This document shows positions 394 through 26,696 of a stretch of DNA of 30,274 nucleotides, piece by piece; position 1 is the first letter of the stretch; every line of letters starts with the position of its first letter. Made by a program: the position numbers and the translations under genes. The stretch covers positions 1 to 30,274 of IMG/VR virus record IMGVR_UViG_3300024518_002971; one strand, given 5' to 3'. Under the pieces are notes generated by a model. The model was not told the DNA's origin. It did not search any database and saw only the letters and a program-made list of their open reading frames with translations. The stretch comes from a virus.

Positions 394-405
394 GGGAACA
401 TTAAA

Positions 406-2034
406 ATGTCTAAAATTACTTCAGGATTAACAACTCACCAGATAAGCGCAGACGAGACCGGCAATAGTACAAAGGTATTGTTAACATCATCAGCAACTTT
501 TACCGGTGCTTGGGAAGATGTCACTGCTTTTGCTACCGTAGCGGTGGCTATTAAAGGCGATAATTCAACAGACGGGACTCTTTACATTGAATCCTCACAA
601 GATGGCGGAATAACTGTCAACTCTGTTCCTTTCGTGGTGGCAGATGCTAGTTTTGATTTACCTCATTTATGGAATGTCGTTGAAACTCACATTAGAGTAA
701 AGTATACAAATGGCACTACCGCACAAACTGGACATTTCCAACTTCAAACTAAGTATTCAAATGCTCAACAGTTGGGATTACTTCAACAAGCTAATGACAC
801 TATTAATGGTGAAACTGATGTTCAGATTGTCAAGTCGGTAGGAACTGGAGCAAACGCAGATGGTGCTTATGTAAATCTACCTGCTAATGGTATTGACAGT
901 AATAATACCCTTTCAGTAAATCTGGGCATATCTGGAGTTTTTACAGGTACGTGGACAGATGTAAGAAATTACTCAGAAATTAGAGTTTCCTATGATGCCG
1001 ATAAGCAGGGAGCTTCATGCTTTCTACAATTTAGTCCAGATGCTTCAACGGTTGAAAGAAGCATTTCCGTACCTCCTCAGGCGAATACCCTGCAAACTAA
1101 CTTTGGAGCGGTGCATACATTAAATCCTATCCTTACTTACTTCAGAGTAGTATACACGAATGGGACAACAGCCACAACGTCCTTTAACTTCACTACTTTA
1201 TTATCGGTTACTACTGGCGGAGGTTTAATTTCAAGATCAACACAGATACTGAATAAATATAACGATGTTGGTCTTCAGCGAGTAATCAACTCCGCCGATA
1301 GTGATAGAAACTTTGGTCTCTTGAATTATCAAACAGCAGGTAGAAAGTTTGGGCACAATAACACTGTCGGCACCGGAGCTTTTGAAACTCTTTGGACTTA
1401 TACTGCGGATTGGATACCAGCACAGTCAGCAGAGACTATACGTATTAAAGCTGGCGGTAATGCTGCGGATGATACGGCTGGCGCAGGTGCCCAAACAGTG
1501 GAGGTTACTTTCTTAGATGGTAACTGGGATGAGGTTACAGAGACTATTGTAACGGCTGGAGCCTCAGCAAGTTTAGCAACCACAGCGACTTGTATTAGAT
1601 TACTAAGAGCCAGAATTGTTAATATAGGAACATATCACGGCCACAATACTGGGGCAATTACTTTTGAGCAGACGACCAGTGCTGCTATTATGGGCTATAT
1701 TGATGCTGATGCTGGCACGACCGAACAGGCTATTATGTCAGTTCCACAAGGCAAAACCTTATATATCACTAACATTCTTGTATCTGTCGGTCAGGCAGAT
1801 AGCGCAGATGTAAGAATCAAGCACGTTGCTGCGGCCAATGACGTTACAACACCGTTCAGAGCAGGTTATGTTGAGTGGGAGATTGAAGACTTTAGCGGTG
1901 CTCAGACGTTTCAGCCTAGAACTTATTTAAAGTTTGAAGAGTACGCTGATATCTACTGTGAGGCTCAAAGAATAACCGGTTCAGGAAGTGCCCGTGTTTC
2001 AATTGATTTTGATTATATCTTAATCGATAATTAA
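406..2034 (+). CDS. Beta-rich virion structural protein with two tandem repeat domains
   Basis: 542 aa, preceded by an AAGGGA Shine-Dalgarno about 9 bases before the ATG. Residues of roughly 25-130 and 170-275 are two copies of one domain: each has an F/GxW-x-DV segment, a central D...G...S-x-D strand region and a (F)RVxYTNGTTAxT ending. The C-terminal half contains AGGNAADDTAGAGAQTVEV-like and PQGKTLYITNI-like segments, known in style from marine phage structural proteins. It lies upstream of the head-tail connector gene and ends at a strong terminator. I infer a capsid-decorating or appendage protein; a receptor-binding role is possible. No enzyme motif is visible. Confidence 0.6.
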   Translation: MSKITSGLTTHQISADETGNSTKVLLTSSATFTGAWEDVTAFATVAVAIKGDNSTDGTLYIESSQDGGITVNSVPFVVADASFDLPHLWNVVETHIRVKYTNGTTAQTGHFQLQTKYSNAQQLGLLQQANDTINGETDVQIVKSVGTGANADGAYVNLPANGIDSNNTLSVNLGISGVFTGTWTDVRNYSEIRVSYDADKQGASCFLQFSPDASTVERSISVPPQANTLQTNFGAVHTLNPILTYFRVVYTNGTTATTSFNFTTLLSVTTGGGLISRSTQILNKYNDVGLQRVINSADSDRNFGLLNYQTAGRKFGHNNTVGTGAFETLWTYTADWIPAQSAETIRIKAGGNAADDTAGAGAQTVEVTFLDGNWDEVTETIVTAGASASLATTATCIRLLRARIVNIGTYHGHNTGAITFEQTTSAAIMGYIDADAGTTEQAIMSVPQGKTLYITNILVSVGQADSADVRIKHVAAANDVTTPFRAGYVEWEIEDFSGAQTFQPRTYLKFEEYADIYCEAQRITGSGSARVSIDFDYILIDN

Positions 2035-2047
2035 TAATTAAACATCC

Positions 2048-2081
2048 AAGGCCATCATCTTTCGAGGTGGTGGCCTTTTTT
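2048..2081 (+). terminator. Intrinsic terminator
   Basis: A 13-bp stem (2048-2060 with 2065-2077, including two G-T pairs) closes on a TTCG loop at 2061-2064 and is followed by a T run to 2081. It ends the transcription unit of the two upstream structural genes, 14 bases after the stop codon. Confidence 0.92.
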
Positions 2082-2098
2082 ATGCTTAGGTTTGTGTA

Positions 2099-2127
2099 TT
2101 GAAAAAAATGATATAAGAGGGTATAAT
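2099..2127 (+). promoter_or_regulatory. Sigma70-type promoter for the connector/tail operon
   Basis: TTGAAA at 2099-2104 and TATAAT at 2122-2127 are separated by exactly 17 bases, directly after the terminator and 27 bases before the next start codon. The leader AATAGGC at 2141-2147 supplies the ribosome binding site and recurs after the fibre promoter at 10347. Confidence 0.8.
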
Positions 2128-2154
2128 AATTAAAAATATTAATAGGCGTTGATA

Positions 2155-2769
2155 ATGAGAATCGAGTTAAAAACTGGCCCAATTGTAAATCCTGCCGTAA
2201 CTTTGGCCGATGTAAAGACTTACGCCTTCAAAAATACTTCTAGTTATGATGGTAAAATTACCTCTTTATTGATTCCTGAACAACAGTATTTAGAGGAATA
2301 TATAGGCCGTAAATTGATAGATCAGTCTTGGTACATTTACCTCGATGCTCTTGAATATTCCGACCGTCTACAGGCTTATAATAAGTCAATCACGCTTTCT
2401 ACATTCAATGTTTCTTCCATCGTTGAAGTAACGAAATACGACCAGTTTAATACTGCCACTGTTGAAACTGCATCCAATTACAGACTATCCGGCAATCAAT
2501 TGTCAGATGTAAGCATGTTAGTTTATAATGATACTTATTCGCCGACCATGAACAACCTTAGAACTGTTGACGCTGTAAGAATCGAAGTCATCGCCGGTTA
2601 TGGTTTACTTGCTGCCGATGTTCCTGGAACTATTATCCAGGCTTTATCAGTTCAGATTGATCAAAAGGTTAGATTTGGCAATAAGATCACCGAAAGTTCG
2701 ACCGAATCATTCAACGAAAACTATCAAAATTTATTAATGCCTTATAGGTCTGTGGAGAATTGGTACTAA
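2155..2769 (+). CDS. Head-tail connector protein (HK97 gp6 / phiE125 gp8-like)
   Basis: 204 aa. The protein starts with the pattern of the gp6/phiE125 gp8-like family: an N-terminal VTLADVKTYA segment, a helix with LLIPEQQYLEEYIGRKLI, then DQSWYIYLD, with a late helix of TIIQALSVQIDQKVRF type. Members of this family form a ring under the portal and connect head to tail. A TTG at 2149 is also in frame, but the AGG at 2144-2146 sits 8 bases before ATG 2155 and only 2 before the TTG, so I chose 2155. It is the first gene of the tail operon and overlaps the next gene as TAATG. The family call rests on pattern and position. Confidence 0.75.
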   Translation: MRIELKTGPIVNPAVTLADVKTYAFKNTSSYDGKITSLLIPEQQYLEEYIGRKLIDQSWYIYLDALEYSDRLQAYNKSITLSTFNVSSIVEVTKYDQFNTATVETASNYRLSGNQLSDVSMLVYNDTYSPTMNNLRTVDAVRIEVIAGYGLLAADVPGTIIQALSVQIDQKVRFGNKITESSTESFNENYQNLLMPYRSVENWY

Positions 2770-3041
2770 TGGCGATGTATAGCGCGGAATTTATTAAAGA
2801 TCACACCTTTTTGCTCAATGGTAAAAGATATTCTGTCTCTGTAAAGCAACAAAGGCGCTTGGCAACTCTTAAGATGGCTAAAGATTTAAAGCTTTCTTTG
2901 GAAAACCTAGACCGCGAATTTAGTGCTGGCCGTAAAAAAGAACCGGCTCCGCTCAAGTTTGAAATACCTGCATCCTGGAAAGCTTCTTGGATGGACAACG
3001 GGATTATTAAAGATACTCGCAAGAAAAAGAAAGATGCCTAA
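2769..3041 (+). CDS. Small protein of the head-tail joining region, unknown function
   Basis: 90 aa, starting in a TAATG overlap with the connector gene; GGAG at 2754-2757 is its likely ribosome binding site. It is Lys/Arg-rich, with a basic KKKKDA end and a helix around residues 25-45. No family is recognised. Its place between the connector and the neck protein suggests a role in head completion, but this is inferred from position only. Confidence 0.6.
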   Translation: MAMYSAEFIKDHTFLLNGKRYSVSVKQQRRLATLKMAKDLKLSLENLDREFSAGRKKEPAPLKFEIPASWKASWMDNGIIKDTRKKKKDA

Positions 3042-3480
3042 CCCATTCGATAAAGCAAATAAACTTATAGCAGATACTCTTGAGGCTAATTCAGTAGCTT
3101 ACAAGGGTGAATTTGCCGTTAGTATGTTGCAGGAATTTGCTCGGGATACTCCAATTGATACCGGCAGAGCTACGGGCAATTGGATCTTAAGAGGCGGTAG
3201 CCCTAATCTTAGACCAGTTAAATTTTTGGACAGAACAAGCACCGCTTCACCGACTGTGAATAGAGCCCGAAAAGATGTTAAAGGCATAAAGCTAAAAGAA
3301 ATGATTTATGTTTCTAATGCTGTTCAGGGCGAAGACGAACGGGGCAATTTTACCGGCGAAGGTTATATAATCGGATTAGAGAATGGCAAGTCAAAGCAAG
3401 CCCCTTTAGGTATGTTCATGATAAATGTTGTAAAGGCAAAAGAGATATCAAGACGAGCTGTCAAGAAGGCTATTAAATGA
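3034..3480 (+). CDS. HK97 gp10-like neck / tail completion protein
   Basis: 148 aa. It has an N-terminal helix, then the TPIDTGRATGNW segment (residues about 38-49), which is the hallmark of gp10-like and minor tail proteins (V/IDTGRxxxxW). A basic C-terminal helix (KAKEISRRAVKKAIK) follows. Proteins of this family sit between connector and tail terminator and complete the neck. The ATG at 3034 overlaps the upstream gene by 8 bases. The reading frame opens further upstream (2923), but that start would lie deep inside the previous gene and lacks a ribosome binding site. Confidence 0.7.
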   Translation: MPNPFDKANKLIADTLEANSVAYKGEFAVSMLQEFARDTPIDTGRATGNWILRGGSPNLRPVKFLDRTSTASPTVNRARKDVKGIKLKEMIYVSNAVQGEDERGNFTGEGYIIGLENGKSKQAPLGMFMINVVKAKEISRRAVKKAIK

Positions 3481-3962
3481 GTTTAGACACAGTCACTAGA
3501 ATTGTTGATTTCTTTGAGGCTAACGGATTTGTTAGCGAGCCAACCGGCGCTGAGATTTACACTATTTTCAGAGATAAGAATTATGACTTAGGGAATGATA
3601 GCGGCGGTGGGCCATTTTGTGAGGTCTTTATTGAGGCTTCAGGAGATAGTTTTGTTGGTTATGGGACAGCAATAGGTCCAGATTACACAGAGACTGGTAT
3701 TGTCGTTGTTCGTATATTCGCTGATGCTGGCTTAGGTGATTTAGATTTATACTCTCTTTCAAGAGTATCAGACATTATCAGGGACACTTTTAGAGATCAA
3801 ACAACAGGTAAACAATTGAAGCTTTGGCCGACTGGTGGTCAACAAGGGATGATATTATTCGAGGATATGAGCTCAAGGCAGACTATCGAAGACGATACGA
3901 CCTATGATACTGTTTACAGAAGAAAAGATATTTTTATCAATTATCAGAAAGTATATAACTAA
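3477..3962 (+). CDS. Tail terminator-like protein
   Basis: 161 aa, joined to the previous gene by an ATGA overlap. The fold pattern is an N-terminal helix (VTRIVDFFEANGF), a central beta region including GIVVVRIFADAG, a helix (LYSLSRVSDIIRDTF) and a C-terminal beta strand ending in DIFINYQKVYN. This matches the size, order and secondary-structure pattern of small tail terminator proteins that cap the tail tube. The position between neck protein and tail tube gene supports it. There is no single diagnostic motif, so the call is from context plus fold pattern. Confidence 0.6.
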   Translation: MSLDTVTRIVDFFEANGFVSEPTGAEIYTIFRDKNYDLGNDSGGGPFCEVFIEASGDSFVGYGTAIGPDYTETGIVVVRIFADAGLGDLDLYSLSRVSDIIRDTFRDQTTGKQLKLWPTGGQQGMILFEDMSSRQTIEDDTTYDTVYRRKDIFINYQKVYN

Positions 3963-3990
3963 TCTTAAATAAAAAAAATGGAGACATATT

Positions 3991-4395
3991 ATGTCGTTAG
4001 GAGTAGGCGCAGTTGATGTAACATTCGTTGGCTTGGCTGGTTCATATTTAGCAGAGCCAGGAACAACAGATGGTGCAACCGTAGCAAAAGTAAACGTAAC
4101 ACCTGCTGGCGTTACAGACGCAGAGTATTGTGCTGGTGATGTAAAAGAACAAACAGACCCAACAGCAACGCTATTAGCCGATTTTACAGTCGATGTTAAT
4201 GGTCTTGTTGGAACTTCTGGCTTGCTTACTTTTGCTTATCCTATTAGCAATACAGGCAATGCCACTAAAGCAACATTGAGCGGCACAGCTTTCTTGCAAT
4301 CTGCATCCGAAAAAAGTGGTCAGAATGTACGCAATGTATATGACCTTGTTTGGGTATGGGAAGGCGCTCCAACATTTAGCCCAGAAGCAGTATAA
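3991..4395 (+). CDS. Major tail (tube) protein
   Basis: 134 aa with a good ribosome binding site (GGAG at 3979-3982, 8 bases before the ATG). The protein is rich in Ala, Thr, Val and Gly, has almost no basic residues in its first half, and alternates strand-forming segments, as expected of a tail tube subunit. It is placed directly before the frameshifted chaperone gene, the normal site of the major tail protein in siphoviruses. It overlaps the chaperone gene as TAATG. It is short for the family, so a small decoration-free tube is likely. Confidence 0.72.
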   Translation: MSLGVGAVDVTFVGLAGSYLAEPGTTDGATVAKVNVTPAGVTDAEYCAGDVKEQTDPTATLLADFTVDVNGLVGTSGLLTFAYPISNTGNATKATLSGTAFLQSASEKSGQNVRNVYDLVWVWEGAPTFSPEAV

Positions 4396-4805
4396 TGGAC
4401 TTAAGCCCCAAAGATTTTACACAGGCTTTTCTTGATACTGAAGTTAGGAAATTAACTTTGAAGAGTATGAAAGGGAAAATTGTGTATCTTCGGGCGCTAA
4501 GCCATGCTGATACGGCAAGATTTAGAAGCATAGTCGATACAATGGAAAAGAAGACTGCTATTGCGGTATTTTCTGGCCCTGAAGTCGCTAAGATAGTCAC
4601 GCAAGAGTGCTATAATGATGCACATGATTATCTTATATTTAAGCTTCTTTGTAATAAAGATGGTAAGCGGTTCTTTACTGACCTCGATCAATTCAATGAA
4701 TGGTGTGAGGATATTAGTCAAAACCCTATCCAAGAGATATTAGAAGACATTAACAAGAATATTACTCTCTATCAAGACACTGGAGAAGAACACGAAAAAA
4801 AGTAG
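4395..4805 (+). CDS. Tail assembly chaperone, short form (G-like)
   Basis: 136 aa; the unshifted product ends at TAG 4803-4805. It has an N-terminal beta segment (VRKLTLKSMKGKIVYLRALS) followed by helices, and lies between the tail tube and tape measure genes, where the lambda G-like chaperone is encoded. Such proteins coat the tape measure during tail assembly and are absent from the virion. Its last codons, GAA AAA AAG, form an A-AAA-AAG slippery site that feeds the longer GT-like form. Confidence 0.85.
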   Translation: MDLSPKDFTQAFLDTEVRKLTLKSMKGKIVYLRALSHADTARFRSIVDTMEKKTAIAVFSGPEVAKIVTQECYNDAHDYLIFKLLCNKDGKRFFTDLDQFNEWCEDISQNPIQEILEDINKNITLYQDTGEEHEKK

Positions 4806-5179
4806 CGTTCCTCCGCGAAAATGTGGAGGCTCAATTCTTTTTTGACATGGCAGAAATGAGACAGTGCAATATTACTGATTTACTTGGTATAGAAAGGCAT
4901 CCTGAATATATAAGCCATAATGAAGTATTGTGGTGGATGGCAAGAAGCTGCCTAAAGCCTATGCCTTCCGTAAGAGATACGATATTTAATAATAACTTGA
5001 TGAATATTGGCTCAGTAAATCAATTTAACGGTCAGCGTATGTTTAAAGATACTGACATTAAATGGTATGAGTTGAGCAAAGAAGACCAATTGATGAGCCT
5101 TAAAGACCATGTGCATAAAAACCAGATGGCTCTAAACGAGAAGAGAAAGCGAGAAGCTGAAAATGTCGAAAGTAGTTGA
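4395..5179 (+). CDS. Tail assembly chaperone, long form (GT-like) by -1 frameshift
   Basis: When ribosomes slip back one base at 4796-4802, reading continues from GTA 4802-4804 without a stop to TGA 5177-5179. The fusion is about 261 aa: the 136 residues of the short form plus 125 new residues beginning VAFLRENVEAQ. The extension includes an acidic/aromatic segment (FFFDMAEMRQCNITDLLG) and a predicted helical end. In siphoviruses the GT form links the tape measure to the tail tube protein. A GTG at 4823 could start the second half alone, but the complete frameshift signal argues against this. It overlaps the tape measure gene by 17 bases. Confidence 0.85.
4782..4829 (+). promoter_or_regulatory. 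Programmed -1 frameshift signal (dnaX-like)
   Basis: Three elements lie in order. A Shine-Dalgarno-like GGAG is at 4782-4785, 10 bases upstream. The slippery heptamer A-AAA-AAG is at 4796-4802 in the correct phase. A hairpin pairs CCTCC 4810-4814 with GGAGG 4825-4829 and starts 7 bases downstream. The same architecture drives frameshifting in E. coli dnaX. Confidence 0.85.
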
Positions 5180-6713
5180 AGAGATAGTCTTAAAAGTCAG
5201 GGTTGATAATAAGCAATCTAAAAAAGCACTTAAAGGCTTGGGTGAACAGACTAAGACCACTACTAAAAATGTCGTCAATCTTGGGAATGCTTTTAAATTA
5301 GTTGCTGGATTAGCTATTGCTAATAAACTCAAGAATGTTGCCGTTAGTGCCATTGATGTATCAGACGCTTTTACACGTGTTGAAAATGCATTGCAGACAG
5401 TATTTGGAAGTCTTGGAGCAGCAAATCAGCAAATGGAATTCCTTGACGAGACTGCGAATCGACTTGGCACTGACCTTCTTGCGACCAGTAAAGGCTTTTC
5501 AATGATTGCAGCATCAGGCAAAAAAGCCGGATTATCTACCAAGCAAGTCCAAGAAATATTTACTGGTGCCTCTGAAGCTTCTGCGGCTCTTTCTTTATCG
5601 GCAGAAAATACTAATGGTGTTTTACTTGCATTCTCACAGATTTTATCAAAAGGAAAAGTACAGGCGGAAGAATTACGCGGACAGATTGGCGAAAGATTAC
5701 CTGGTGCTTTTAGTATTGCGGCTGATGCAATGGGTCTTAGTACCACAGAACTTGACAAGTTAATGCAGTCAGGCGAATTAGCTGCAAATGAATTCTTGCC
5801 AGCTTTTTCAAAGGCATTACAAGAGACTTTCCATGAGGGCGCAATGAAGAACGCCACTAAGTCTATTGCGAATGCTACAAGACAGCAGAATGAATATAAT
5901 AAATCACTTAAGGAAGTCGGCGGCCCGTTAAAAGATGTCGGCATTGAGTTGTCAACTATCCGAAATGAATTTCTTATCTTTGCTTCTGATGCTGCATTTA
6001 GTGTAACCGCAGCATTTGTAGATCTTATTGGGTATGGAGAGGAATTTAGAAAAAACCTAGACGCAGATGCAACTGAGATGTCGAATCTTTCTGATAAGAC
6101 TACTAAGGCCGCCACTAAAGTTGAAAAGTTCTCTAAGTCGATTGAAGCGCTCAATGGAATTTCCCTAAAACTAGAAGGTGCGCAGAAATTAGACGAGTTG
6201 AGAGATAAGCTTGGCCTCACAGAAAAAGGTTTTGAGATTTTAAAGAAAGGATTTGGCGGCGGAAAGTCACTCTTAAAGTTATTCGATGATAAAGATGAGA
6301 AGACGCAAGAGTTGTTTTTTGATAATGTAAATAAAATCCTCGCTGCTCAAAAAGGCGGGAGTAGCCAATTCTTTAAGATCAATCAGAAAGATATAGAATT
6401 TATAAAGACTCTTGATAAATGGATGGGTACAGAGTTTGATCCATTCGGCGGTTTAGATCCTGCTTTCGCTCAAACACTCGGTAAGGTTGGTGACTTCGCA
6501 AAGGCTGACAAAGATAAAATTCAGCCTGTCAACCTCGGCCCAACAGAAGCCCTTGAAGCTGGCTCAGCTGATGCTTTACGATTTGCATCTAGACCGATTG
6601 AAAAGAACATGGAAAAGATTGCCCAAGATCAACTTACAGTTCAGGGGCAGATCAAAGACGGTATTGATAAGATTGGAACGAATCAAAATCCAGTAAACAC
6701 GGCGGACATATAG
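5163..6713 (+). CDS. Tail tape measure protein
   Basis: 516 aa. Residues of about 65-220 match the phage tape measure N-terminal domain: the string AFSQILSKGKVQAEELRGQI and the following GERLPGAFSIAADAMG are diagnostic (around 156-191). An N-terminal helical, Lys-rich segment and a hydrophobic stretch (FKLVAGLAIANKL, 44-56) precede it. The rest is mostly helical. The protein sets tail length and is ejected with the DNA. At about 0.15 nm per residue it predicts a tail near 75-80 nm, which is short. It follows the frameshifted chaperone, as in lambda-like tails. Confidence 0.92.
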   Translation: MSKVVEEIVLKVRVDNKQSKKALKGLGEQTKTTTKNVVNLGNAFKLVAGLAIANKLKNVAVSAIDVSDAFTRVENALQTVFGSLGAANQQMEFLDETANRLGTDLLATSKGFSMIAASGKKAGLSTKQVQEIFTGASEASAALSLSAENTNGVLLAFSQILSKGKVQAEELRGQIGERLPGAFSIAADAMGLSTTELDKLMQSGELAANEFLPAFSKALQETFHEGAMKNATKSIANATRQQNEYNKSLKEVGGPLKDVGIELSTIRNEFLIFASDAAFSVTAAFVDLIGYGEEFRKNLDADATEMSNLSDKTTKAATKVEKFSKSIEALNGISLKLEGAQKLDELRDKLGLTEKGFEILKKGFGGGKSLLKLFDDKDEKTQELFFDNVNKILAAQKGGSSQFFKINQKDIEFIKTLDKWMGTEFDPFGGLDPAFAQTLGKVGDFAKADKDKIQPVNLGPTEALEAGSADALRFASRPIEKNMEKIAQDQLTVQGQIKDGIDKIGTNQNPVNTADI

Positions 6714-7653: not shown

Positions 7654-8348
7654 TGGGTGGCGCATGGGCATTCTCGAATCGTAATGATTTAGACAGAACT
7701 GGCAAGTCAGTAAAAGTTACTGAGGCATTAACATCCACTTTCGGAAGTGATGTCATTGCTGGTGTCGGTGCTCGTTATGCAAAGATAACAGAACTAATCG
7801 AAGGTGAGACCAAGATTGCTAAAGGCATGGCGGTTAAGTGGGATGCCGAAACTAGCGACTGGGTTGATAATGAAGATGGTGCTGTCTATGATTATGATAC
7901 ACTTACCGGAGCTGGCGACTCAGAGACAACAGTCACAATCCAATACACAAATAATATTACTTCACCTTCAGATTTAAATATTGATCAAATCGTTCGGCTT
8001 CAGTATTACCCGGGACTTTCGGACACTTCGCAATGGCTTGTTCTTGAAACTGGTGCTGGTTCTTCGACTACTTTACTTGATATCCAATCTGTTGATTCAG
8101 AAACCGGCATTTATACAGGTGCTATTTTAGATAATCCCACTGACCAGAATGAGATTGCCACAGATGTTTTAATTAAGACGCTTGAGGGAACCTCTAACAC
8201 CGATGCACTCTTGGGAATCCAAACTTTTTCATCTAAATCATATACAGAAGATATTCCAGAGGATGAGCTTGAAGAGCCCACAGAAGAAGAGCCTAACCCA
8301 CCGACAACAAGGCTTATTTATTATATCGAACCGCCGATAATTTACTGA
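7653..8348 (+). CDS. Tail protein with acidic PE-rich C-terminal linker
   Basis: 231 aa. The N-terminal 180 residues are beta-rich and unassigned. Residues of about 198-221 form an acidic proline-rich stretch (DIPEDELEEPTEEEPNPPTT) that recurs in the next protein. The final residues are aromatic (YYIEPPIIY). It overlaps both neighbours by one base (TAATG and TGATG), so the three genes are translationally coupled. It is probably a small tail tip component; the function is unknown. Confidence 0.5.
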   Translation: MGGAWAFSNRNDLDRTGKSVKVTEALTSTFGSDVIAGVGARYAKITELIEGETKIAKGMAVKWDAETSDWVDNEDGAVYDYDTLTGAGDSETTVTIQYTNNITSPSDLNIDQIVRLQYYPGLSDTSQWLVLETGAGSSTTLLDIQSVDSETGIYTGAILDNPTDQNEIATDVLIKTLEGTSNTDALLGIQTFSSKSYTEDIPEDELEEPTEEEPNPPTTRLIYYIEPPIIY

Positions 8349-9682
8349 TGGCTGGCTGGGATGATATAGAAGTTGACGGTCAATCACTTGGCGAGCTCGA
8401 ACCTGGATACATAATTGATATTAAATTAATCAATACCTATATAAAAGCCTATAATGAAAAGGCCAATATAGTAGAAGTGCCTCGTATTGATCCAATTGTA
8501 ACAGAGATCGATATTCCAGAAGAAGATCAGGAAGAGCCAACGCCAGAGAATCCAAATCCCCCCACGACAATGGATGCAGGCCCATATATATGGAATTATT
8601 CAAAGCTTACTGAGTTAGTTCAAGGCTATGGCCGACTAATGAATAACATCACATGGGTAAAAGAATCTGTTTTCCTTGATCCTCTCTCTGTTGATTCTGT
8701 TTATATCACTCAAACAGGCCAATTTGTCGAAGCTGATTTTATTCTATTGATTGGTCAGCTTAATTATGATATACTTTCTGACCCTTTTGATGATTGGCGT
8801 TTAAAGGACATTCAAAGCGCTAGTATGCTCAATGCAATGTATAAGCTTTATTCAGAGGTCTTTATTTATGTTGAGCGTGATTCTATACCTAATTCTCGAT
8901 GGAGCCTAAAGAGACATTCAATCAAGGATGGTCTTTCAGCTACTCCGCATAAGAGTGATTTCATTCCTAGAACTGGACAAAATGAGTTCTTTAAGGTTGA
9001 AGACTTCTTAAATGTCTCATTCAAAAATACTTATGAAAATCTAGAGTTTGCAGAAGAAGTTGATAATAGGCGGCAGGTTAATTTTAGTATTAATGATTCT
9101 CAGACCGCTCGTATTAATACTGGCGATGCGAACGACCCTGGTGGCACTGATATGTCATACAGCGCACAAGCGAGCATTAATCAAAGAATATTTAATACAG
9201 TGCTTCATACGTTTGTAAATGATGAAGGTGATTTTGTAGAGCTTGAATTTTCATGTGCTGGATATGTCACTAATAATCATATTGAGGATTCAACAACACC
9301 GGTTGAGACCGAGCAGATCACTATCAGTTCATTTGATAATGGGTATCCTCAAGTAGTTGGAGTGCAGCAAAATTACGTCAGAATTAAATGGCCTGATTTG
9401 GTTAATTCTGAGATTACTGACGATGGTTGGCTTTTCCACACTATATTAGAGAATCATCATGAATACGGAATAGAGACTGGTGAGTTTATTTATGATTTTG
9501 CAGATATACCGCCAAGGCCAAGCAACCCAAATGATACAAGAAAGGCCATACTTAAGAAGCTTTTATTATCATTAAAGACGGGAGATTCCCCGATAGACGG
9601 CAAGCGTCAAGACTATTATTATAATACGAATGTCGAAGCGATGATTTATAATACCTTGCCTGATGAAGAGGAAGAGCCTTAA
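8348..9682 (+). CDS. Tail tip protein, unknown family, shares linker motif with its neighbour
   Basis: 444 aa. Near residue 57 it carries DIPEEDQEEPTPENPNPPTT, almost the same linker as in the preceding protein, and it ends in an acidic LPDEEEEP tail. The body mixes helices (SMLNAMYKLYSEVFIYV) and beta segments. Its place after the tape measure and before the fibres would fit a hub or receptor-binding adaptor. The TAA at 9680-9682 overlaps the stop codon of the pseudopilin gene on the other strand, with no terminator between them. Confidence 0.5.
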   Translation: MAGWDDIEVDGQSLGELEPGYIIDIKLINTYIKAYNEKANIVEVPRIDPIVTEIDIPEEDQEEPTPENPNPPTTMDAGPYIWNYSKLTELVQGYGRLMNNITWVKESVFLDPLSVDSVYITQTGQFVEADFILLIGQLNYDILSDPFDDWRLKDIQSASMLNAMYKLYSEVFIYVERDSIPNSRWSLKRHSIKDGLSATPHKSDFIPRTGQNEFFKVEDFLNVSFKNTYENLEFAEEVDNRRQVNFSINDSQTARINTGDANDPGGTDMSYSAQASINQRIFNTVLHTFVNDEGDFVELEFSCAGYVTNNHIEDSTTPVETEQITISSFDNGYPQVVGVQQNYVRIKWPDLVNSEITDDGWLFHTILENHHEYGIETGEFIYDFADIPPRPSNPNDTRKAILKKLLLSLKTGDSPIDGKRQDYYYNTNVEAMIYNTLPDEEEEP

Positions 9683-10140
9683 AACATATCGGAAGTTGAA
9701 ACGACTGTAAATTTTATTATATTCCCGCTATCATCCAAGACTACTAAAACTTGATATGGAATTTCGTATGGGTCTAATAAGATTGTCCCTGTCGCAGCAC
9801 TTGCATCATTTGAATCGTAATTATTATTACTTGTATACATGTTATTCGATCGGTAGTCAATGAACATAGGCCTGACAGTGCCTTCCCACCCGGCATTCAA
9901 AGGGACATCGCTTAATTTTTCGGCAAAGTTTACGAGCTGAGTATCACTAAAAGGATAAGTATTATATCTTTCTTTGTACTGCCTGATAGCGGATTCAATT
10001 ATAGCTACTTCGGCTTTCATTTTAGTCTTATTTTGAGACCGAATAACTTTAGCACCTGCTACCCAAGATATTCCGATTAGGGTTATCAAGATTAGAATAA
10101 CAAATAATACTTCTATTAAAGTGAAGTTCTTTTTCTTCAT
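9679..10140 (-). CDS. Type II/IV pseudopilin (GspG-like), phage-encoded
   Basis: 153 aa from ATG 10140. It has the prepilin signature: a short basic leader MKKKN, then FTLIEVLFVILILITLIGIS with Glu at +5 of the mature protein, followed by the long amphipathic helix (KAEVAIIESAIRQYKERYNTYP) typical of GspG-like major pseudopilins. Leader cleavage would require the host prepilin peptidase; the residue before Phe is Asn rather than the usual Gly. Mature pilins assemble in the inner membrane into short fibres. An ATG at 10152 is also in frame, but ATG 10140 overlaps the upstream peptide gene as ATGA and gives a normal short leader. It is on the opposite strand to all neighbouring structural genes, like a moron. 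Confidence 0.85.
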   Translation of the reverse strand: MKKKNFTLIEVLFVILILITLIGISWVAGAKVIRSQNKTKMKAEVAIIESAIRQYKERYNTYPFSDTQLVNFAEKLSDVPLNAGWEGTVRPMFIDYRSNNMYTSNNNYDSNDASAATGTILLDPYEIPYQVLVVLDDSGNIIKFTVVSTSDMF

Positions 10141-10229
10141 GACATCACCCATATGTAAGTTAATCTTGTGACAGATATCATTAGCAATAATGTTAATGGA
10201 ATCAATAATTCATTCAGTATCTTTTTCAT
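10137..10229 (-). CDS. 30-aa putative membrane peptide upstream of the pseudopilin
   Basis: This short frame runs from ATG 10229 to TGA 10139-10137, overlapping the pilin start as ATGA. The peptide begins MKKILNELLIPLTLLLMISV and ends with RLTYIWVMS, so it is one basic end plus one hydrophobic helix. An AGGG about 10 bases upstream could serve as ribosome binding site. Translational coupling of this kind is the rule in this genome, which supports it. It could instead be chance reading through a leader. Confidence 0.4.
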   Translation of the reverse strand: MKKILNELLIPLTLLLMISVTRLTYIWVMS

Positions 10230-10260
10230 AAAAAAAGTGCCCTTATTTTGCCCTTGATAA

Positions 10261-10290
10261 TAATATAACCTAAAAAAAGATATGATGTAA
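10261..10290 (-). promoter_or_regulatory. Possible promoter for the pseudopilin module
   Basis: On the minus strand TTTACA (10290-10285) and TATATT (10266-10261) are 18 bases apart, about 32 bases before the small peptide start. The match is moderate and the region is AT-rich, so it is tentative. Confidence 0.4.
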
Positions 10291-10346
10291 ATTACAAATC
10301 ACTGGTTTTTATGTAATAGCATGATCGATAGAAGGTTGGCAATTCA

Positions 10347-10375
10347 TTGAAAATATCAATAAACACTCCTATACT
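10347..10375 (+). promoter_or_regulatory. Sigma70-type promoter for the fibre genes
   Basis: TTGAAA at 10347-10352 and TATACT at 10370-10375 are 17 bases apart, 27 bases before the fibre start. An AATAGGC leader at 10390-10396 supplies the ribosome binding site, as after the promoter at 2099. The two look like copies of one late-type promoter/leader unit. Confidence 0.75.
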
Positions 10376-10402: not shown

Positions 10403-12808
10403 ATGATCACTGCACAGTACAAAGCCCCTGTTATAGTCGGTGGCACTTCACAAACTAAAACTTTCAAGGCACTTCCTGGCCAATTAATCAACAGACAATC
10501 CGGCGACTTAACTTTAATATACGAAGATACTACCGGTCAGCCTTTTGACGTGTCATCACTTACAGGCTCTGATTTTAAATGTGTTCCTTATGGTTCTGGT
10601 GAGACTCCAGTAACTTTAGCGGCTGGAGTAACTTCTTACACTGGTGAAATTTCCGTAATAACTGCGGCAACTGTTCCTGCAACTGGTGGTACTTTTACAA
10701 TCACTGTCGCGGAAGAGACTACCGGTGTAATCGCTTATAATGCTACTGCTGCAACTATCCAGACCGCTTTAGAGGCGCTTGCTTCACGAACAGGCGGTGA
10801 TTTTATAGTCACTGCTCTTGGTGCTCCTAATCTTGGTGATGTTGGCGCGAGCGTTGAGATTGAAACTTCAGGCGGCTTTGCCATAAACTTCAACTCAACT
10901 ATTGACACAGCTTCACTTACCGGCAATCCTCACACAATCTCGATCACTCAAGACGGCTCAAACATTCAGAATAATTATAATGTTGCTTGGCCTAAGGATA
11001 CTATCCCGGCTGAATATGCCGAATTTCCTGTTGATAGAGATGGCGCAATTTCCTTTTTTGTTGCTCTTGAAGATGCCGACGATTTCTTTCAGGCTTACCA
11101 AAGAGTAGCCATTGTTGATGATGTCTTCACAGTTACTGGCGGTGCAATTTCGAGTTCAGCAACTTATGTTTATAACCCTACCGATAATAATAACTGGCTG
11201 CGCTATGCAACATCAGCACCGGTTACACTTAACGATGGCTTAGATAAAGTAGTTGATAGAAACTTTAGAGACTTTGGCGCAGTATTAGACTTGCTTGCTA
11301 CTCCTCCTGGTTCACCTGCTGACGGCGATGCTTATTTAGTTATAGCAACTGCCACCGGTCTATGGCTCAGTAAAGAAGGCAAGATTGCAAAATATTCGTC
11401 AACTACTACTAACTGGACTTTCTCGAATGTTCATAAGAACGGCGATGAGATACTTGATTTAGATTCTGGCGATGGATACAGATATGATGGAGCGGCTTGG
11501 GTTGTTACTTCCCCGGCGATTGGTGCTAACACTATTGCAAACAGCCAACTTGCTCAAATCAATCAAAACATAATTAAAGGCCGTGTCTCTACTGGTCTTG
11601 GCGATGTCGAAGATTTAACTGAGGTACAAGCTAAGACTGTTTTAAGTCTTGATCAGGTAGATAACACACCCGACTCAACTAAACCAGTTTCAACGGCTCA
11701 AGCTGCGGCAGATAATTTAAGAGTACTAGAAAGCACAGTTTCAGTTGCTAAGTTTAACGCAAGTGCTTTACAAGGTACTGATATTTCTACTGGAACGCCT
11801 TCTAATGGTGATGTCTTAGCTTATAATTCAGGAAATGACGAGTATGAGCCTGTTGCGGCTGGCGGTGGTGGTGGTGTAAATGGCGGCATATCTTTCCAGA
11901 CTAACTTTGAAGTTGATGTTACAAGCTCAGAACCTGCAACCGGTGGCATTAAGTTTAACTCAGCTACAATTGCAAGTGTCACAATCATAAGAGTTTCGGC
12001 AACTGATGCAAATGGCGTTGATATTAATGACCGCCTTTCGACTATTGGCAATGGCGACTCTTTTTATTGTCGAGTTCTTAACGGAACTACAAAATGGCTT
12101 AAAGTTTCTGTCACAAGCTCAACTTTAGTAACGACTTCATATGATATTGTTTGTGCTGTCGTTGGCGGAACTGGCGTTCTTCCTGCCGCAGCTGACATAC
12201 TTGGCATTGATCCAGAAATTATTACAACTGGCGGCACCGGTAATGTTGCAACATTTAACGGAAGAGCTGGTGCTGTTGTCTCGGCTAATACAGATTATCC
12301 AAGTTCAATTATTCCTGATTCATCTTCACTTGGTGGCCCTTTTGTTTTTGACTCTCTTGACACTTTAAATACTTCTAAAGTCGCAACAACAAGAAATGTA
12401 AACACCGGTTCAACTTTGACTGGTGGCGGTGACTTAAGCGCTGACAGAACTTTAGATATTGATTTAACTAATTCAAATACCTACACGGCTCAGCAAGTAT
12501 TTAGCAATGGCAATTTAACTGATGCACCAAGTATTGTTTGGGATGTAGAAGATAAGCAGTCAACAGCGGTGACACTTACAGCAAATAGAGCCTTAGCAAA
12601 TCCCACAAACCAGATAGACAAAGGCACTTATGTTTTGCGTGTAGTCCAAGATGGCACCGGTTCGAGGACTTTAACTTTCGGGGCCAATTACAAATGGCCA
12701 GGAGGCACCGCACCGACTTTAACGACTACAGCGGGTGCCGTGGATATAATCAGTTTCGTTTCAGATGGAACTAACATGTATGGAGTCTTCCAAGGAGACT
12801 TTAGCTAA
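10403..12808 (+). CDS. Large tail fibre protein with DUF2793-like segment
   Basis: 801 aa. The N-terminal part is beta-rich and includes an ATAATIQTALEAL helix-strand segment. At about residues 285-375 there is a DUF2793-like region (ATPPGSPADGDAYLV, KIAKYSSTTTNWTF, GDGYRYDGAAWV). A linker with Ala-rich helix (AQAAADNLRVLEST) and a poly-Gly stretch near 485 follows. The C-terminus (TAVTLTANRALANP ... GTYVLRVVQDGTGSRTLTFG) is a fibre-end domain common in marine phages. It is the first gene behind its own promoter and overlaps the next gene as TAATG. It likely contacts the host surface or its polysaccharide; no hydrolase motif is visible. Confidence 0.75.
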   Translation: MITAQYKAPVIVGGTSQTKTFKALPGQLINRQSGDLTLIYEDTTGQPFDVSSLTGSDFKCVPYGSGETPVTLAAGVTSYTGEISVITAATVPATGGTFTITVAEETTGVIAYNATAATIQTALEALASRTGGDFIVTALGAPNLGDVGASVEIETSGGFAINFNSTIDTASLTGNPHTISITQDGSNIQNNYNVAWPKDTIPAEYAEFPVDRDGAISFFVALEDADDFFQAYQRVAIVDDVFTVTGGAISSSATYVYNPTDNNNWLRYATSAPVTLNDGLDKVVDRNFRDFGAVLDLLATPPGSPADGDAYLVIATATGLWLSKEGKIAKYSSTTTNWTFSNVHKNGDEILDLDSGDGYRYDGAAWVVTSPAIGANTIANSQLAQINQNIIKGRVSTGLGDVEDLTEVQAKTVLSLDQVDNTPDSTKPVSTAQAAADNLRVLESTVSVAKFNASALQGTDISTGTPSNGDVLAYNSGNDEYEPVAAGGGGGVNGGISFQTNFEVDVTSSEPATGGIKFNSATIASVTIIRVSATDANGVDINDRLSTIGNGDSFYCRVLNGTTKWLKVSVTSSTLVTTSYDIVCAVVGGTGVLPAAADILGIDPEIITTGGTGNVATFNGRAGAVVSANTDYPSSIIPDSSSLGGPFVFDSLDTLNTSKVATTRNVNTGSTLTGGGDLSADRTLDIDLTNSNTYTAQQVFSNGNLTDAPSIVWDVEDKQSTAVTLTANRALANPTNQIDKGTYVLRVVQDGTGSRTLTFGANYKWPGGTAPTLTTTAGAVDIISFVSDGTNMYGVFQGDFS

Positions 12809-14382
12809 TGTTTACGCATCCTGTTTGCTTTCTAGGGGCTGCGGGTACATCTACCCCAACTCTTTATAATACTTTAGGTTTAGACATTGCCGAGTCTCAA
12901 TATCTAAGCTTAACAGATTCCACAGATTTTAATTTTGGAACAGCATATACATTTTGTTGCTGGGTTTATCCTACTGATTTATCCGTTGAGAATGGAATTT
13001 ACAATCAGCCTGGCAGCTCTTTAAACTTTGCTCAAATGTCAATACTTCCAACTGGTAAGATGAGTTTTAAGGCAACTTATGGCGGCACAATTTCAATTGA
13101 TATTGAATCAGATGTAACCCTTCTTGAAAATAATCTTTATATGATCGGCTTTCAGGTAATTGGAAGTACACTTTCTTTTATTATTAATGGCGTTCACGAT
13201 ACTAATTCAGGCTCTTTTGCTGTCGCTCCGAATGATTTGGCAACTAACCTTCAGTTGGCCCGGGTTCATGAGGGGGTAAACTTCTTTTACTTTTCCGGTG
13301 CCTTTTCTTTACCGATGGCCTTTCAAGCAGCTTTAGGTCCACAGGCTTTATTAGATATCTATAATGGCGGCACAGCTAAACAACCTGAATGCTACGATGC
13401 AACGACAATCACAGATAATTACGCTTTTGCTATTCCCTTAAATGATGGCGTTGATTCTGGGCAAGAGCTTGTTGACGTTTCAGGAAATGGAAATAATGCT
13501 TTTTTATTCGGATCACCTACACCGGTTTATGATGGAGAGCAGCAAGGGATTCTTACTTGCCCAGGTGGTGGCGATCCTACTATATTCGCAGTCAATAGTG
13601 CTTCTTATAATGGTGTTTCTAATTATTTCAATGGCGGCGATATACTCGATGTTGGCACAGGCGATGCTTCTGTCTCTTTTTGGTTTAAGACAACCAATGG
13701 CGGCACCACTGCAAGAGCCTTAGTGACTAAACAAAATGGAGCTTTCCCACAGTGGGGTATTCGTACAAACTCTAGTGGTACTATAAATGCAGCGGTAGAG
13801 GTTAGTGGCGGCCATTCATATTATTATGACACCACTAGCACAGTAAATGATGGCATGTATCACCATGTTGTGTGGATCTTCAACCGAGCAAGTAATATTC
13901 CTATTGTATATATTGATGGATCTTTAGAAGCTATGGTTGATGCTGGATCTGTTGGCGATGTCTCAACAGGTAGCTTATCGAATTCAGCTAATTTATTTAT
14001 TGGCGCAAGAGACCTAGTAAGTAAGTTACTTATGATTGGATCAATGGCGTTTATTAGGATGGCGGCTGAAGATTTAGACTCAACTGATGTGGCAAATTTG
14101 TATAACTCTGGGAACCCCCGCTGTTTCGATGGTATAGCCGCAACAACAAAAGCAAAATTAACAGCTGCCTGGGAGCTTGGAAACTGGACAGATTCAACCG
14201 GCACAGAGATTGAGGACAGGGTTGGAGCTAACGACCTAACCAATGTTGGTTCGACGCCGTTCACTGAATCAGGCTTAGATGTTTCATGTGGCGGCACACC
14301 ACCAGCCGAAACTTTCAATATCCTTACCGAATCAGGCGACTCTTTAACAACCGAATCAAGCGATAATTTAATACTGGAGTAA
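12808..14382 (+). CDS. Virion protein with two LamG/concanavalin A-like domains
   Basis: 524 aa. Two jelly-roll lectin-like domains are recognisable: one at about 25-200 (FNFGTAYTFCCWVYPTD, then FKATYGGTISI, FIINGVHDTN) and one at about 265-450 (YFNGGDILDVGTGDASVSFWF, then YHHVVWIFNRASNIPIVYID). Both have the strand pattern of LamG-type domains, which bind glycans. The C-terminus is Thr/Ser/Glu-rich (FNILTESGDSLTTESSDNLI). It sits between the big fibre and the spike, so it probably forms part of the adsorption apparatus. Confidence 0.72.
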   Translation: MFTHPVCFLGAAGTSTPTLYNTLGLDIAESQYLSLTDSTDFNFGTAYTFCCWVYPTDLSVENGIYNQPGSSLNFAQMSILPTGKMSFKATYGGTISIDIESDVTLLENNLYMIGFQVIGSTLSFIINGVHDTNSGSFAVAPNDLATNLQLARVHEGVNFFYFSGAFSLPMAFQAALGPQALLDIYNGGTAKQPECYDATTITDNYAFAIPLNDGVDSGQELVDVSGNGNNAFLFGSPTPVYDGEQQGILTCPGGGDPTIFAVNSASYNGVSNYFNGGDILDVGTGDASVSFWFKTTNGGTTARALVTKQNGAFPQWGIRTNSSGTINAAVEVSGGHSYYYDTTSTVNDGMYHHVVWIFNRASNIPIVYIDGSLEAMVDAGSVGDVSTGSLSNSANLFIGARDLVSKLLMIGSMAFIRMAAEDLDSTDVANLYNSGNPRCFDGIAATTKAKLTAAWELGNWTDSTGTEIEDRVGANDLTNVGSTPFTESGLDVSCGGTPPAETFNILTESGDSLTTESSDNLILE

Positions 14383-14385
14383 AAA

Positions 14386-15390
14386 ATGGCAGATACAAAA
14401 TTTAGTGAATTACCCGTAAAAAGCACAGCTGTTGATTTAATAGCGGATATTTTCGCGGTTGTCTCGGGTGGAGTAACAGAGCAGGTTCCAGCGAATCTTA
14501 TACCTTTTACAAAGATATTGACCGCTTCGACAAGCGTTTATATTGCGACTACCGGCAATGATACTACAGGAGATGGTTCTGTTGGCCTTCCATACTTAAC
14601 GCCACATAAGGCTTATGAGCATTTACAAGACTATTTTCTAGGTGCTGGAGTTATTGCAACTATCCAGTGTGCTGCCGGTACTTATACGCATGCTTCGACT
14701 CTTATTCCTTATCACCCTCAAGGCTCACAAATAATCTTAAGTGGTGCGACTATGTTGGGTACTGTCGTTGATGGGGATTTTGTTGCAAGTGCAGCCACGA
14801 CCACGACTAATCTTGAGACTAGATATGCGACAATTTTTAGAGGCAACTTTGCTGGTGCAATGATATCCTCTGGAGATTTTGGCACTGAGTTATTATTTAG
14901 ATGTGAAGATATCTTATTTGATGGCAATGCGGTGTCAACTTATGGCCTATTGATGACGAATGGCTCAAACTTCAGATGTGTCGGGATAAGCTGCATAAGT
15001 ATGGTTGTTCGGGGCGTGCATATTGAAGGCGGTGGTTTAGGCGATATTAATGGTGATTCTAGTCTTAGTCATGGTGCCATTGGTTTATGGTCAGACACTA
15101 ATTCAACTATTTTAATGATTGATTGTTTTACTCCTTATAATACTGACACCGGCATTTTCTGCACTGGAGGGTCTCAATTGACTGTTTTTAATACTGTCTC
15201 AAGAGCAAATACAAATGATGATTATGTTTCGTCTGATGTATCTTATATGCGCATAGCAAGCGGATTGGCTACAGGCCAGTTTGTCAGATGCTCAAATCGA
15301 TCCTCAATAAATGCTGCCAGTGTTGGGGGTGTTACTTATTCACCTGCTCACGCTGTGAACGGTAATAATGATTCAATAATCTACGCTTAA
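14386..15390 (+). CDS. Tail spike with right-handed beta-helix
   Basis: 334 aa. The N-terminal 45 residues (TKFSELPVKSTAVDLIADIFAV) resemble virion-attachment segments seen on many fibres. From about residue 50 (STSVYIATTGNDTTGDGS) onward the sequence follows the pattern of a parallel beta-helix of pectate lyase type, with repeated turns such as ATIQCAAGTYTHASTLIPYH and GLLMTNGSNFRCVGISCISM. Such spikes often bind or cut capsule or exopolysaccharide. I see no certain catalytic residues. GGAG within the last codons of the previous gene serves as ribosome binding site. Confidence 0.72.
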   Translation: MADTKFSELPVKSTAVDLIADIFAVVSGGVTEQVPANLIPFTKILTASTSVYIATTGNDTTGDGSVGLPYLTPHKAYEHLQDYFLGAGVIATIQCAAGTYTHASTLIPYHPQGSQIILSGATMLGTVVDGDFVASAATTTTNLETRYATIFRGNFAGAMISSGDFGTELLFRCEDILFDGNAVSTYGLLMTNGSNFRCVGISCISMVVRGVHIEGGGLGDINGDSSLSHGAIGLWSDTNSTILMIDCFTPYNTDTGIFCTGGSQLTVFNTVSRANTNDDYVSSDVSYMRIASGLATGQFVRCSNRSSINAASVGGVTYSPAHAVNGNNDSIIYA

Positions 15391-15400
15391 GAGGTTTATC

Positions 15401-15655
15401 ATGCAAATAGTTATTAAAGAAGATAAAGTATTCGCTATCCACACTAATGACCAGGATTTAGATGGTCACTATGATGGCCTAGAAGTCTTGGAAATTGATG
15501 GCGTTAAGCCGCATAAAGAAGATGGAACGCCAAAGACTAAGACTGAATTAGTCTCCGAGTCTGACGGTATGTCAAAGAAGGCTACTAAGCTTCAGAAATT
15601 AGCCAAGATGGTAATTAATTTAAAAGCCAGAGTTGATGCATTAGAAGGCAACTAA
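15401..15655 (+). CDS. Small protein after the spike, unknown function
   Basis: 84 aa, with AGAGG about 8 bases before the ATG. The N-terminal half is a beta-type segment (QIVIKEDKVFAIHTNDQD) and the last 30 residues (KKATKLQKLAKMVINLKARVDALEGN) form a probable coiled coil. It overlaps the next gene as TAATG. Placement suggests a fibre chaperone or a small tip protein, which is inference from position only. Confidence 0.55.
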   Translation: MQIVIKEDKVFAIHTNDQDLDGHYDGLEVLEIDGVKPHKEDGTPKTKTELVSESDGMSKKATKLQKLAKMVINLKARVDALEGN

Positions 15656-16056
15656 TGACAGATAAGCAAATAGAAAAGTGGTTTGTAGAGCTTCCAGAGT
15701 ATGAATCTTATGTAATGGCTATTGGTCATTATAATAAAGATCTTGGATATGCCGGGCCGAATAACAGTAAGGTTTTAGAGTATATAATTCCGGAAACTTT
15801 ATATGGTATTAATCTAAATCCGGCTTTTTATCAACACGATGCGAATTATTCAATAGGTGGAAACAATAAAGACCGCTGGAAATCTGATGTCACCATGGTA
15901 GCAACTGGTTTATTCATTATAGAAAACACTCCAGATAGATGGTATTTGTGGGGAGTTAATACAGCCAGGCGTCACATGGCACGAAATAGATTAGTAAAAT
16001 ACTTTGAGGCTGTAAGGTCACAAGGCCATAAGAGCTTTAACTTTAGTGGTAATTGA
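15655..16056 (+). CDS. HDxxY-motif protein, phospholipase A2-like
   Basis: 133 aa. The centre reads YQHDANYSIGGNNKDRWKSD (residues 59-78), giving H61-D62-x-x-Y65 with G68, G69, D73, R74 and D78. This HDxxY arrangement followed by a glycine turn, an Arg and an Asp resembles the catalytic helix of secreted and prokaryotic phospholipase A2-like proteins, and also small phage proteins of DUF1353 type. There is no signal peptide. If enzymatic, it could hydrolyse membrane lipids at entry or lysis. It is the last gene of the fibre unit. Confidence 0.5.
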   Translation: MTDKQIEKWFVELPEYESYVMAIGHYNKDLGYAGPNNSKVLEYIIPETLYGINLNPAFYQHDANYSIGGNNKDRWKSDVTMVATGLFIIENTPDRWYLWGVNTARRHMARNRLVKYFEAVRSQGHKSFNFSGN

Positions 16057-16076
16057 ATTACAAAATTAAGATATTA

Positions 16077-16112
16077 TTGTAAAACACCAGACTTTAAGAA
16101 CTATATTATAAT
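16077..16112 (+). promoter_or_regulatory. Weak candidate promoter for the lysis cassette
   Basis: The 71-base gap before the next gene contains TTGTAA at 16077-16082 and TATATT at 16102-16107 (19 bases apart), with TATAAT overlapping at 16107-16112. The -10 is good but the spacing or the -35 is poor in each combination. An AAGG (16113-16116) and AAGAAG ribosome site follow. Confidence 0.35.
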
Positions 16113-16127
16113 AAGGCAAGAAGAAAA

Positions 16128-16466
16128 ATGAGTATAACAAATGAAGACATTAGCTTTTGGGGAAGCGCTTTGGTTATTATGGGTGTGGTGTTTTCAATTA
16201 TTAAGGGCATTGTAGTCATGAAAGAAAAAATAAGGGTTCTGGATGGGAAAATTGACTCTCACAAAGACGACACTCATAAAAAATTTGATGATATTGAGAG
16301 CGCATTTAATGAATATAAGACCGAAATTAAAGAGGTCATAGGCGAGCTTAAGAAAGAAGTAGATAAATTAAGGGACTCAAACCAACAAGCACAGAAAGAG
16401 CTCATAAAGATCATCAATAAAAATCATATTTCTTTGCTTGAGAAAATAAGCGAGGCCAAGAAATGA
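16128..16466 (+). CDS. Membrane-anchored coiled-coil protein of the lysis region (holin/XhlA- or i-spanin-like)
   Basis: 112 aa. One hydrophobic helix (about 11-31, WGSALVIMGVVFSIIKGIVVM) is followed by a long charged coiled coil (35-112, with repeated DDIESAFNEYKTEIKEVIGEL-type heptads). This is the topology of XhlA-type membrane accessory proteins and of inner-membrane spanins. It starts the short cassette before the terminator, where lysis genes are expected. No endolysin is visible next to it. It overlaps the receiver gene as ATGA. Confidence 0.55.
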   Translation: MSITNEDISFWGSALVIMGVVFSIIKGIVVMKEKIRVLDGKIDSHKDDTHKKFDDIESAFNEYKTEIKEVIGELKKEVDKLRDSNQQAQKELIKIINKNHISLLEKISEAKK

Positions 16467-16846
16467 TAGCTGACAAAACCTTAAATGTACTGCACTTCGA
16501 AGATGAGAAAACAAACCAGATGATCGTTAGGCATAAGCTAAAGAATAAATTTGGTGCCACAACTCAAACAGAATCTACTTTACAAAATCTCGACATCTAC
16601 TTTAAGACTCATTACATCGATCAATTTGACCTTGTTATCTGTGATTGGAATTTCCCTATTTTTAATATAGAACTTAAGCTCCCTACGCTTGCAAAGTCTG
16701 GCAAACCTATTTTATTCTATAGTTGTATTGATGAATGCGAATGGCTAGAAAGAGTTAAAAAGGTTTTGGGAAAGATTCCCGATAACTTCACATTTAATCG
16801 AAAGGCTTGTGATGACATTATATCGACTATTAGAAATATCTTATAA
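16463..16846 (+). CDS. CheY-like receiver domain protein, phage-encoded
   Basis: 127 aa, the size of one receiver domain with nothing attached. The signature residues are present in order: acidic pair E13-D14 after strand 1 (LNVLHFEDE), phosphoacceptor D61 at the end of strand 3 (FDLVICDWNFP), the Ser/Thr position as S87 (PILFYSC) and the conserved Lys as K114 (FTFNRKA). Receivers take phosphate on the Asp from a histidine kinase; no kinase or output domain is encoded here, so the partner would be the host or a neighbouring phage protein. The gene is coupled by ATGA to the upstream membrane protein and overlaps the downstream lipoprotein gene. Confidence 0.78.
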   Translation: MIADKTLNVLHFEDEKTNQMIVRHKLKNKFGATTQTESTLQNLDIYFKTHYIDQFDLVICDWNFPIFNIELKLPTLAKSGKPILFYSCIDECEWLERVKKVLGKIPDNFTFNRKACDDIISTIRNIL

Positions 16847-17027: not shown

Positions 17028-17055
17028 GCAAGCTCATTCCTTGTCTTTTCCTTGG

Positions 17056-17090
17056 CCCCCGCAGTTCTCGTCCTTCTGCGGGGGTTTTTT
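17056..17090 (+). terminator. Intrinsic terminator of the lysis cassette
   Basis: CCCCCGCAG (17056-17064) pairs with CTGCGGGGG (17076-17084) around an 11-base loop, followed by six T (17085-17090). On the minus strand the same hairpin lacks a U tract, so it should stop rightward transcripts only. It sits between two convergent units. Confidence 0.92.
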
Positions 17091-17092
17091 AT

Positions 17093-19900: not shown

Positions 19901-19922
19901 TGTATTCTCCTTTGTTATTGTT

Positions 19923-20037: not shown

Positions 20038-20039
20038 AT
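20011..20039 (+). promoter_or_regulatory. Rightward early promoter
   Basis: TTGCAA (20011-20016) and TATCAT (20034-20039) are 17 bases apart, 32 bases before the first rightward gene. The inverted-repeat copy 20026-20037 overlaps the -10, so a bound repressor would block it. Confidence 0.7.
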
Positions 20040-20071
20040 AACTACATAAACAACGCGAAAGGAAGGAAAAA

Positions 20072-26691: not shown

Positions 26692-26696
26692 AAACA

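Follow-up and report, generated by a model that had tools for sequence, protein, structure and literature searches.

Tailed and filamentous phages are known to shut off the type IV pili of their hosts. The smallest Pf4 protein, PfsE, binds to PilC and prevents superinfection (PMC8764522), and Gp05/Tip of D3112 and Aqs1 of DMS3 act on PilB (PMC11436027). In the literature covered, the published pilus-disabling phage proteins are small, unrelated proteins that bind PilB or PilC. As for the fibre subunits of the cell itself, calcium is critical to the folding and assembly of PulG, a GspG-type pilin (PMC6692295). In the open-access papers searched, we found no report of a phage-encoded pseudopilin.

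The stretch of DNA analysed here ("the window") is an entire IMG/VR record of 30,274 bases. It is derived from a tailed phage, with genes for a tail terminator, a tape measure protein, a DUF2793 fibre, RecT, a RecE-like exonuclease, a DnaD-like loader and a DnaB-like helicase. Two genes that run antisense to the neighbouring tail genes are located between a gene of the tail/baseplate region, for which no family match was found, and the tail fibre gene (Table 1). One encodes a GspG-like pseudopilin and the other a very short membrane peptide. The stop codon of the pseudopilin gene overlaps that of the convergent tail gene by four bases (9679-9682).

Table 1. Features of the cassette and of the genes around it (window positions).
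Feature	Position	Strand	Remark
Tape measure protein (TMP_3)	5163..6713	+	Synteny anchor to L074
Tail/baseplate-region gene	8348..9682	+	Converges on the pseudopilin gene, 4-bp stop overlap
GspG-like pseudopilin, 153 aa	9679..10140	-	157 aa if the start is at 10152
Prepilin peptidase motif N-FTLIE, residues 5-10	10111..10128	-	Also in the host and L074 relatives
Membrane peptide, 30 aa, MKKILNELLIPLTLLLMISVTRLTYIWVMS	10137..10229	-	Stop overlaps the pseudopilin start (ATGA)
Promoter-like site TTTACA-18-TATATT, 10/12	10262..10291	-	Upstream of the cassette
Promoter-like site TTGAAA-17-TATACT	10347..10375	+	Ahead of the fibre gene
Tail fibre gene (DUF2793 domain)	10403..12808	+	Far side of the cassette; homologue in L074, E 2e-8

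The original prediction, which described a prepilin signature (KKKN-FTLIEV) on the strand opposite to the structural genes, was borne out. The complete open reading frame extends from 9679 to 10152 on the minus strand and is intact; the start at 10140 is an ATG with a Shine-Dalgarno sequence ahead of it (GGGTGATGTC-ATG), and the N-terminus of the protein reads MKKKNFTLIEVLFVILILITLIGISWVAG. It displays the signature of the prepilin superfamily (MKKKN-FTLIEVLFVILILITLIGISWVAG), namely a basic leader, the processing site, a Phe, a Glu at position +5 and a hydrophobic helix, and it aligns to cellular prepilins. Cleavage is expected between N5 and F6.

Assignment to a family by profile is less clear-cut. 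The top profile was that of GspG (TIGR01710, E 1.6e-7), with a score of 31.4 bits that does not reach the curated cut-off of 88.85, and both N_methyl (PF07963, 17.4 vs 21.2 bits) and T2SSG (PF08334, 17.2 vs 21 bits) were below threshold. The kinship with prepilins is nevertheless secure, because it follows not from these scores but from the relatives that the protein matches: a chromosomal gene of the Lentisphaerota genome G292 (55% over 127 aa, E 2e-35) and a gene of a second viral contig, L074 (41% over 132 aa, E 2e-33 in a pairwise comparison). The fold typical of the superfamily is a lollipop, with a long helix at the N-terminus and an antiparallel sheet at the C-terminus. Two AlphaFold models of low confidence (mean pLDDT 54 and 49) have a helix at residues 8-59 with strands after it, and a fold search with these models returned no significant PDB match, only noise.

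The original prediction had also singled out the Asn that precedes the cleavage site as a peculiarity that might affect processing. Among 19 prepilins drawn from G236 and G292, residue -1 is mostly Gly or Ser, but it is Asn in two, both from one genome, and the nearest relatives of the pseudopilin have Tyr or Arg there. As Asn at -1 occurs in host prepilins, it was ruled out as a special feature.

The cellular relatives of the pseudopilin are confined to a narrow group. A scan of genome contigs returned only three loci, all of them in Lentisphaerota, and in 289 genomes of this phylum most matches were restricted to the shared N-terminus, the few stronger ones falling in a single family of six genomes. 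Besides the G292 gene, there are relatives in G236 (53% over 87 aa; the gene lies at the edge of its contig) and in G198, G212 and G293 (35-38%). In the tree, the window protein groups with the G292 and G236 genes (98/95), adjoining those of G198, G212 and G293, a placement that makes capture by a phage after that split likelier than the reverse. Hence, as far as the sequences can tell, the pseudopilin is best read as captured from the G236/G292 lineage of Lentisphaerota. A captured host gene was among the origins initially proposed, and both the tree and the specific motifs common to one Lentisphaerota family favour it.

In the chromosomes of G292, G293 and G212, the pseudopilin gene is followed in the same order by a PD-(D/E)XK-like gene and mqnE; the PD-(D/E)XK-like gene also adjoins it in G198, and the G236 contig ends before reaching this side of the locus. 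The six genomes of the family each encode 18-123 N_methyl prepilin genes, an A24 prepilin peptidase and several T2SSF/PilC (GspF) domains, and pilT adjoins pilC wherever the start of the gene is readable. In G292, G236, G293, G212 and G198 the prepilin-motif genes number 78-123 per genome, far above the need of one pilus system. A host paralogue of the C-terminal domain of the pseudopilin (NFAEQLSKV ... FVDY ... DPWG) was also observed in G292 (L057 5844-6371), with a relative in G236 (L050). It has a membrane helix, is devoid of the prepilin motif in the G292 copy, and adjoins mutY and ftsK.

The assignment of a host is based on the pseudopilin and on the GC content, which is 38-41% in the phages and host loci alike. 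From these we infer that the phages infect the G236/G292 family or its near relatives. When compared with 388 Lentisphaerota genomes, the phage tape measure protein gave one match, outside this family, and the phage RecT had matches in five genomes, none of them among the six of the family; neither search corroborated this family as the host.

Such genes are rare in tailed phages, as was originally surmised. The 50,697 isolate phage records searched contained no relative, and neither did the plasmids. A query of IMG/VR with the pseudopilin alone returned nothing, and alignments of phage and host proteins retrieved L074, the sole other viral contig with a relative. L074 carries phage capsid and tail tube genes. 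Its pseudopilin gene occupies the equivalent junction, is likewise reversed, and has the identical four-base convergent stop overlap; the position between tail and fibre genes is therefore conserved in a second phage. The two phages are related through the tape measure protein (41% over 162 aa, E 1e-31), the fibre and one more tail gene (E 4e-7), whereas BLASTP gave no alignment for the tail terminator, for the gene that follows the tape measure, or for the tail gene beside the pseudopilin. The absence of the gene from related phages had been named as a finding that would speak against the prediction. The opposite was found in L074, and the close siblings of the window, G001 and G002, are silent on the matter because they span only window positions 1-6184 and 11509-30274 and miss the locus.

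The 30-residue membrane peptide, coupled to the pseudopilin by an ATGA overlap, is as originally described. By itself, an open reading frame of at least 28 codons ending near the pseudopilin start has a chance of about 4% in shuffled sequences. The peptide is credible because L074 has a counterpart at the equivalent place, a hydrophobic peptide of 31 residues (MKKTLTDVVAILILALVFSLGRLLCVSLGLL) that lies behind an AAGGAG and also overlaps the pseudopilin start. It is the top match to the window peptide among the 577 small open reading frames of the phage contigs examined, although the similarity is modest (10/30; P ~0.01 given the fixed MKK). A comparable membrane peptide is absent from the four host loci whose upstream DNA is readable.

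Taken together, the peptide and the pseudopilin look like a conserved two-gene phage cassette and not like debris. Since position, orientation, overlap and peptide agree in the two phages (n=2), we favour a single, old phage cassette. With the L074 protein in the tree, the grouping of the phage, G292 and G236 proteins has support of 81/72. On whether the phage copies form one clade the tree is neutral (AU p 0.29), which leaves the choice between one and two captures undecided.

The cassette resembles a moron in that it is located between conserved phage genes and in reversed orientation. A promoter upstream of it, as predicted, does exist as a site, but such sites occur at chance level in the window (7 observed vs 5.4 expected from shuffles), and terminator sites are likewise not above chance. 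Among the open reading frames scanned in the window and the sibling extensions, a set that leaves out some small frames, neither an integrase nor a repressor was recognised. The lysogen in which the original prediction proposed to measure expression is accordingly without support, and a prophage phase or a lysogenic role is unsupported.

Several other parts of the window deserve mention. Positions 19343-20034, with a GIY-YIG gene at 19302-19769, are replaced by about 250 bp in sibling G002, which is 99-100% identical elsewhere, and the gene is probably a mobile homing endonuclease. Along the tape measure gene (5163-6713, compared with L006 3-1016), similarity to sibling G001 is lost part-way, although the two are 96% identical over the rest of their shared 6.2 kb, which suggests recombination of the tail module. 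The protein encoded at 16463-16846 looks like a receiver domain (HFEDE ... DLVICDWNFP) and has no PHROG or Pfam match; it is possibly a response-regulator-like protein of the phage. A phospholipase A2-like stretch (HDANYSIGGNNKDRW) is encoded at 15655-16056, in a gene with no family match that adjoins a weakly spanin-like gene (16128-16466) and perhaps specifies a lysis enzyme.

What might a phage gain from a pseudopilin? We recognised no phage gene for secretion or pilus assembly machinery. Because the pseudopilin stands alone, its product would need the peptidase and the assembly platform of the host, both of which are present in the presumed host lineage. On our analysis, it is quite possible, though we hold this tentatively, that the pseudopilin enters the pilus or pseudopilus machinery of the host and, partnered by the peptide, obstructs or modifies the fibre. 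The host prepilin peptidase would cleave the phage pseudopilin, and the processed protein would join the platform on which the host assembles its type IV pilus or its type II secretion system, where it could block or alter the fibre as a competing subunit. The peptide would act at the same inner-membrane platform. A blocked or altered fibre is our best guess because phages are known to shut off type IV pili. The most likely benefit, itself a guess, would be superinfection exclusion, in which fibre-dependent phages are kept from further adsorption during the infection; a change in secretion or in DNA uptake is a possible alternative. Protection against other phages and assistance with virion exit, both raised in the original prediction, would be conjectural roles. 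A role of the pseudopilin in the virion is unlikely, since the gene runs opposite to the tail genes.

The same machinery would be used if the pseudopilin were a working replacement or an extra subunit that improves or redirects the host fibre, for instance towards faster secretion or an altered surface. Both phage copies have kept the prepilin motif and the helix, and the C-terminus of the L074 copy retains the calcium-loop pattern (SIGLDSVDDGDDI), aligning to the loop of PulG, and passes PF08334 at 22.4 bits. The window copy, however, ends in IIKFTVVSTSDMF, and the chain stops just ahead of where the GspG calcium loop (S-x-G-x-D ... D-D-I) would be. When the region downstream of IIK was inspected by eye in the two remaining frames for a frameshifted loop, no loop pattern emerged. 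Since calcium is critical for PulG and the window copy is devoid of the loop, the window protein is probably unable to serve as a one-to-one substitute for a calcium-dependent GspG. Its loss of the loop is more readily reconciled with a poisoning subunit than with a functional replacement, and no further secretion gene was recognised that would accompany such a subunit. We therefore consider a working subunit unlikely.

It is less likely still that the gene is neutral or recently captured host cargo without a function for the phage. A supply of up to 123 prepilin genes in the host family and the solitary state of the gene, outside any secretion operon, would be in keeping with such an origin. 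Nonetheless, it has remained intact in two phages whose neighbouring tail genes align barely or not at all, and both share its place, orientation and companion peptide. About equally improbable is an action on natural transformation, in which the cassette would disturb a competence pseudopilus and prevent DNA uptake by the infected cell. It is suggested by dprA, which is divergently adjacent to the relative in G236 and about 3 kb away in G293, but this linkage is found in two genomes only and the hosts give no sign of natural competence. Finally, although pseudopilins are cellular genes and this is the single host-type gene at the locus, it is very improbable that it represents a mis-assembled or misbinned host stretch within a viral contig, as it is flanked by phage genes to either side (its stop overlaps that of the tail gene, and about 170 bp separate the fibre gene from the peptide), no host-type neighbour gene lies beside it, and the matching arrangement occurs in L074, an independent contig from a different IMG dataset.

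Interference with the host fibre, if true, would mean that a phage employs a copy of a pilus subunit, kept with a companion micropeptide at one locus, to mimic a subunit of a host nanomachine. Somewhat more doubtful, but quite conceivable, is the wider proposition that tailed phages of Lentisphaerota possess a conserved, undescribed counter-fibre system, in which a captured pseudopilin and a dedicated micropeptide poison the fibre of the type IV pilus or of type II secretion from within by subunit mimicry. The cassette would also tie uncultured phages to hosts in a phylum that has received little study, and give a testable way into the role of the dozens to more than 100 prepilin genes per Lentisphaerota genome.

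Of the described systems, GspG of type II secretion (TIGR01710/PF08334) resembles the window protein in the FTLIE motif, the hydrophobic N-terminal helix and a DPYExPY segment past the variable region; it is the top profile match, and the L074 copy and the host relatives score over the PF08334 cut-off. In contrast, the phage-encoded window copy scores below both cut-offs, lacks the C-terminal calcium loop, and is found amid phage tail and fibre genes instead of in a gspC-M operon. The chromosomal pseudopilins of the G236/G292 family of Lentisphaerota, its neighbours in the tree, share with it GISWVAGxKVxRSQxKxK, NF.E.LS.V, RPMFIDY and DPYE, but have a longer C-terminus, a cellular setting and no upstream peptide where the DNA is readable. 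Tip/Gp05 and Aqs1 bind the PilB ATPase, and a likeness to pilins is not described for them (PMC11436027), but they too are accessory proteins of tailed phages that disable the host pilus. PfsE belongs to a filamentous phage, has no pilin partner, and contains a conserved YAWGW cluster that is absent from the window and L074 peptides; yet, as a very small phage protein of the inner membrane, it sets the precedent for a peptide that acts on the PilC platform of the type IV pilus (PMC8764522).
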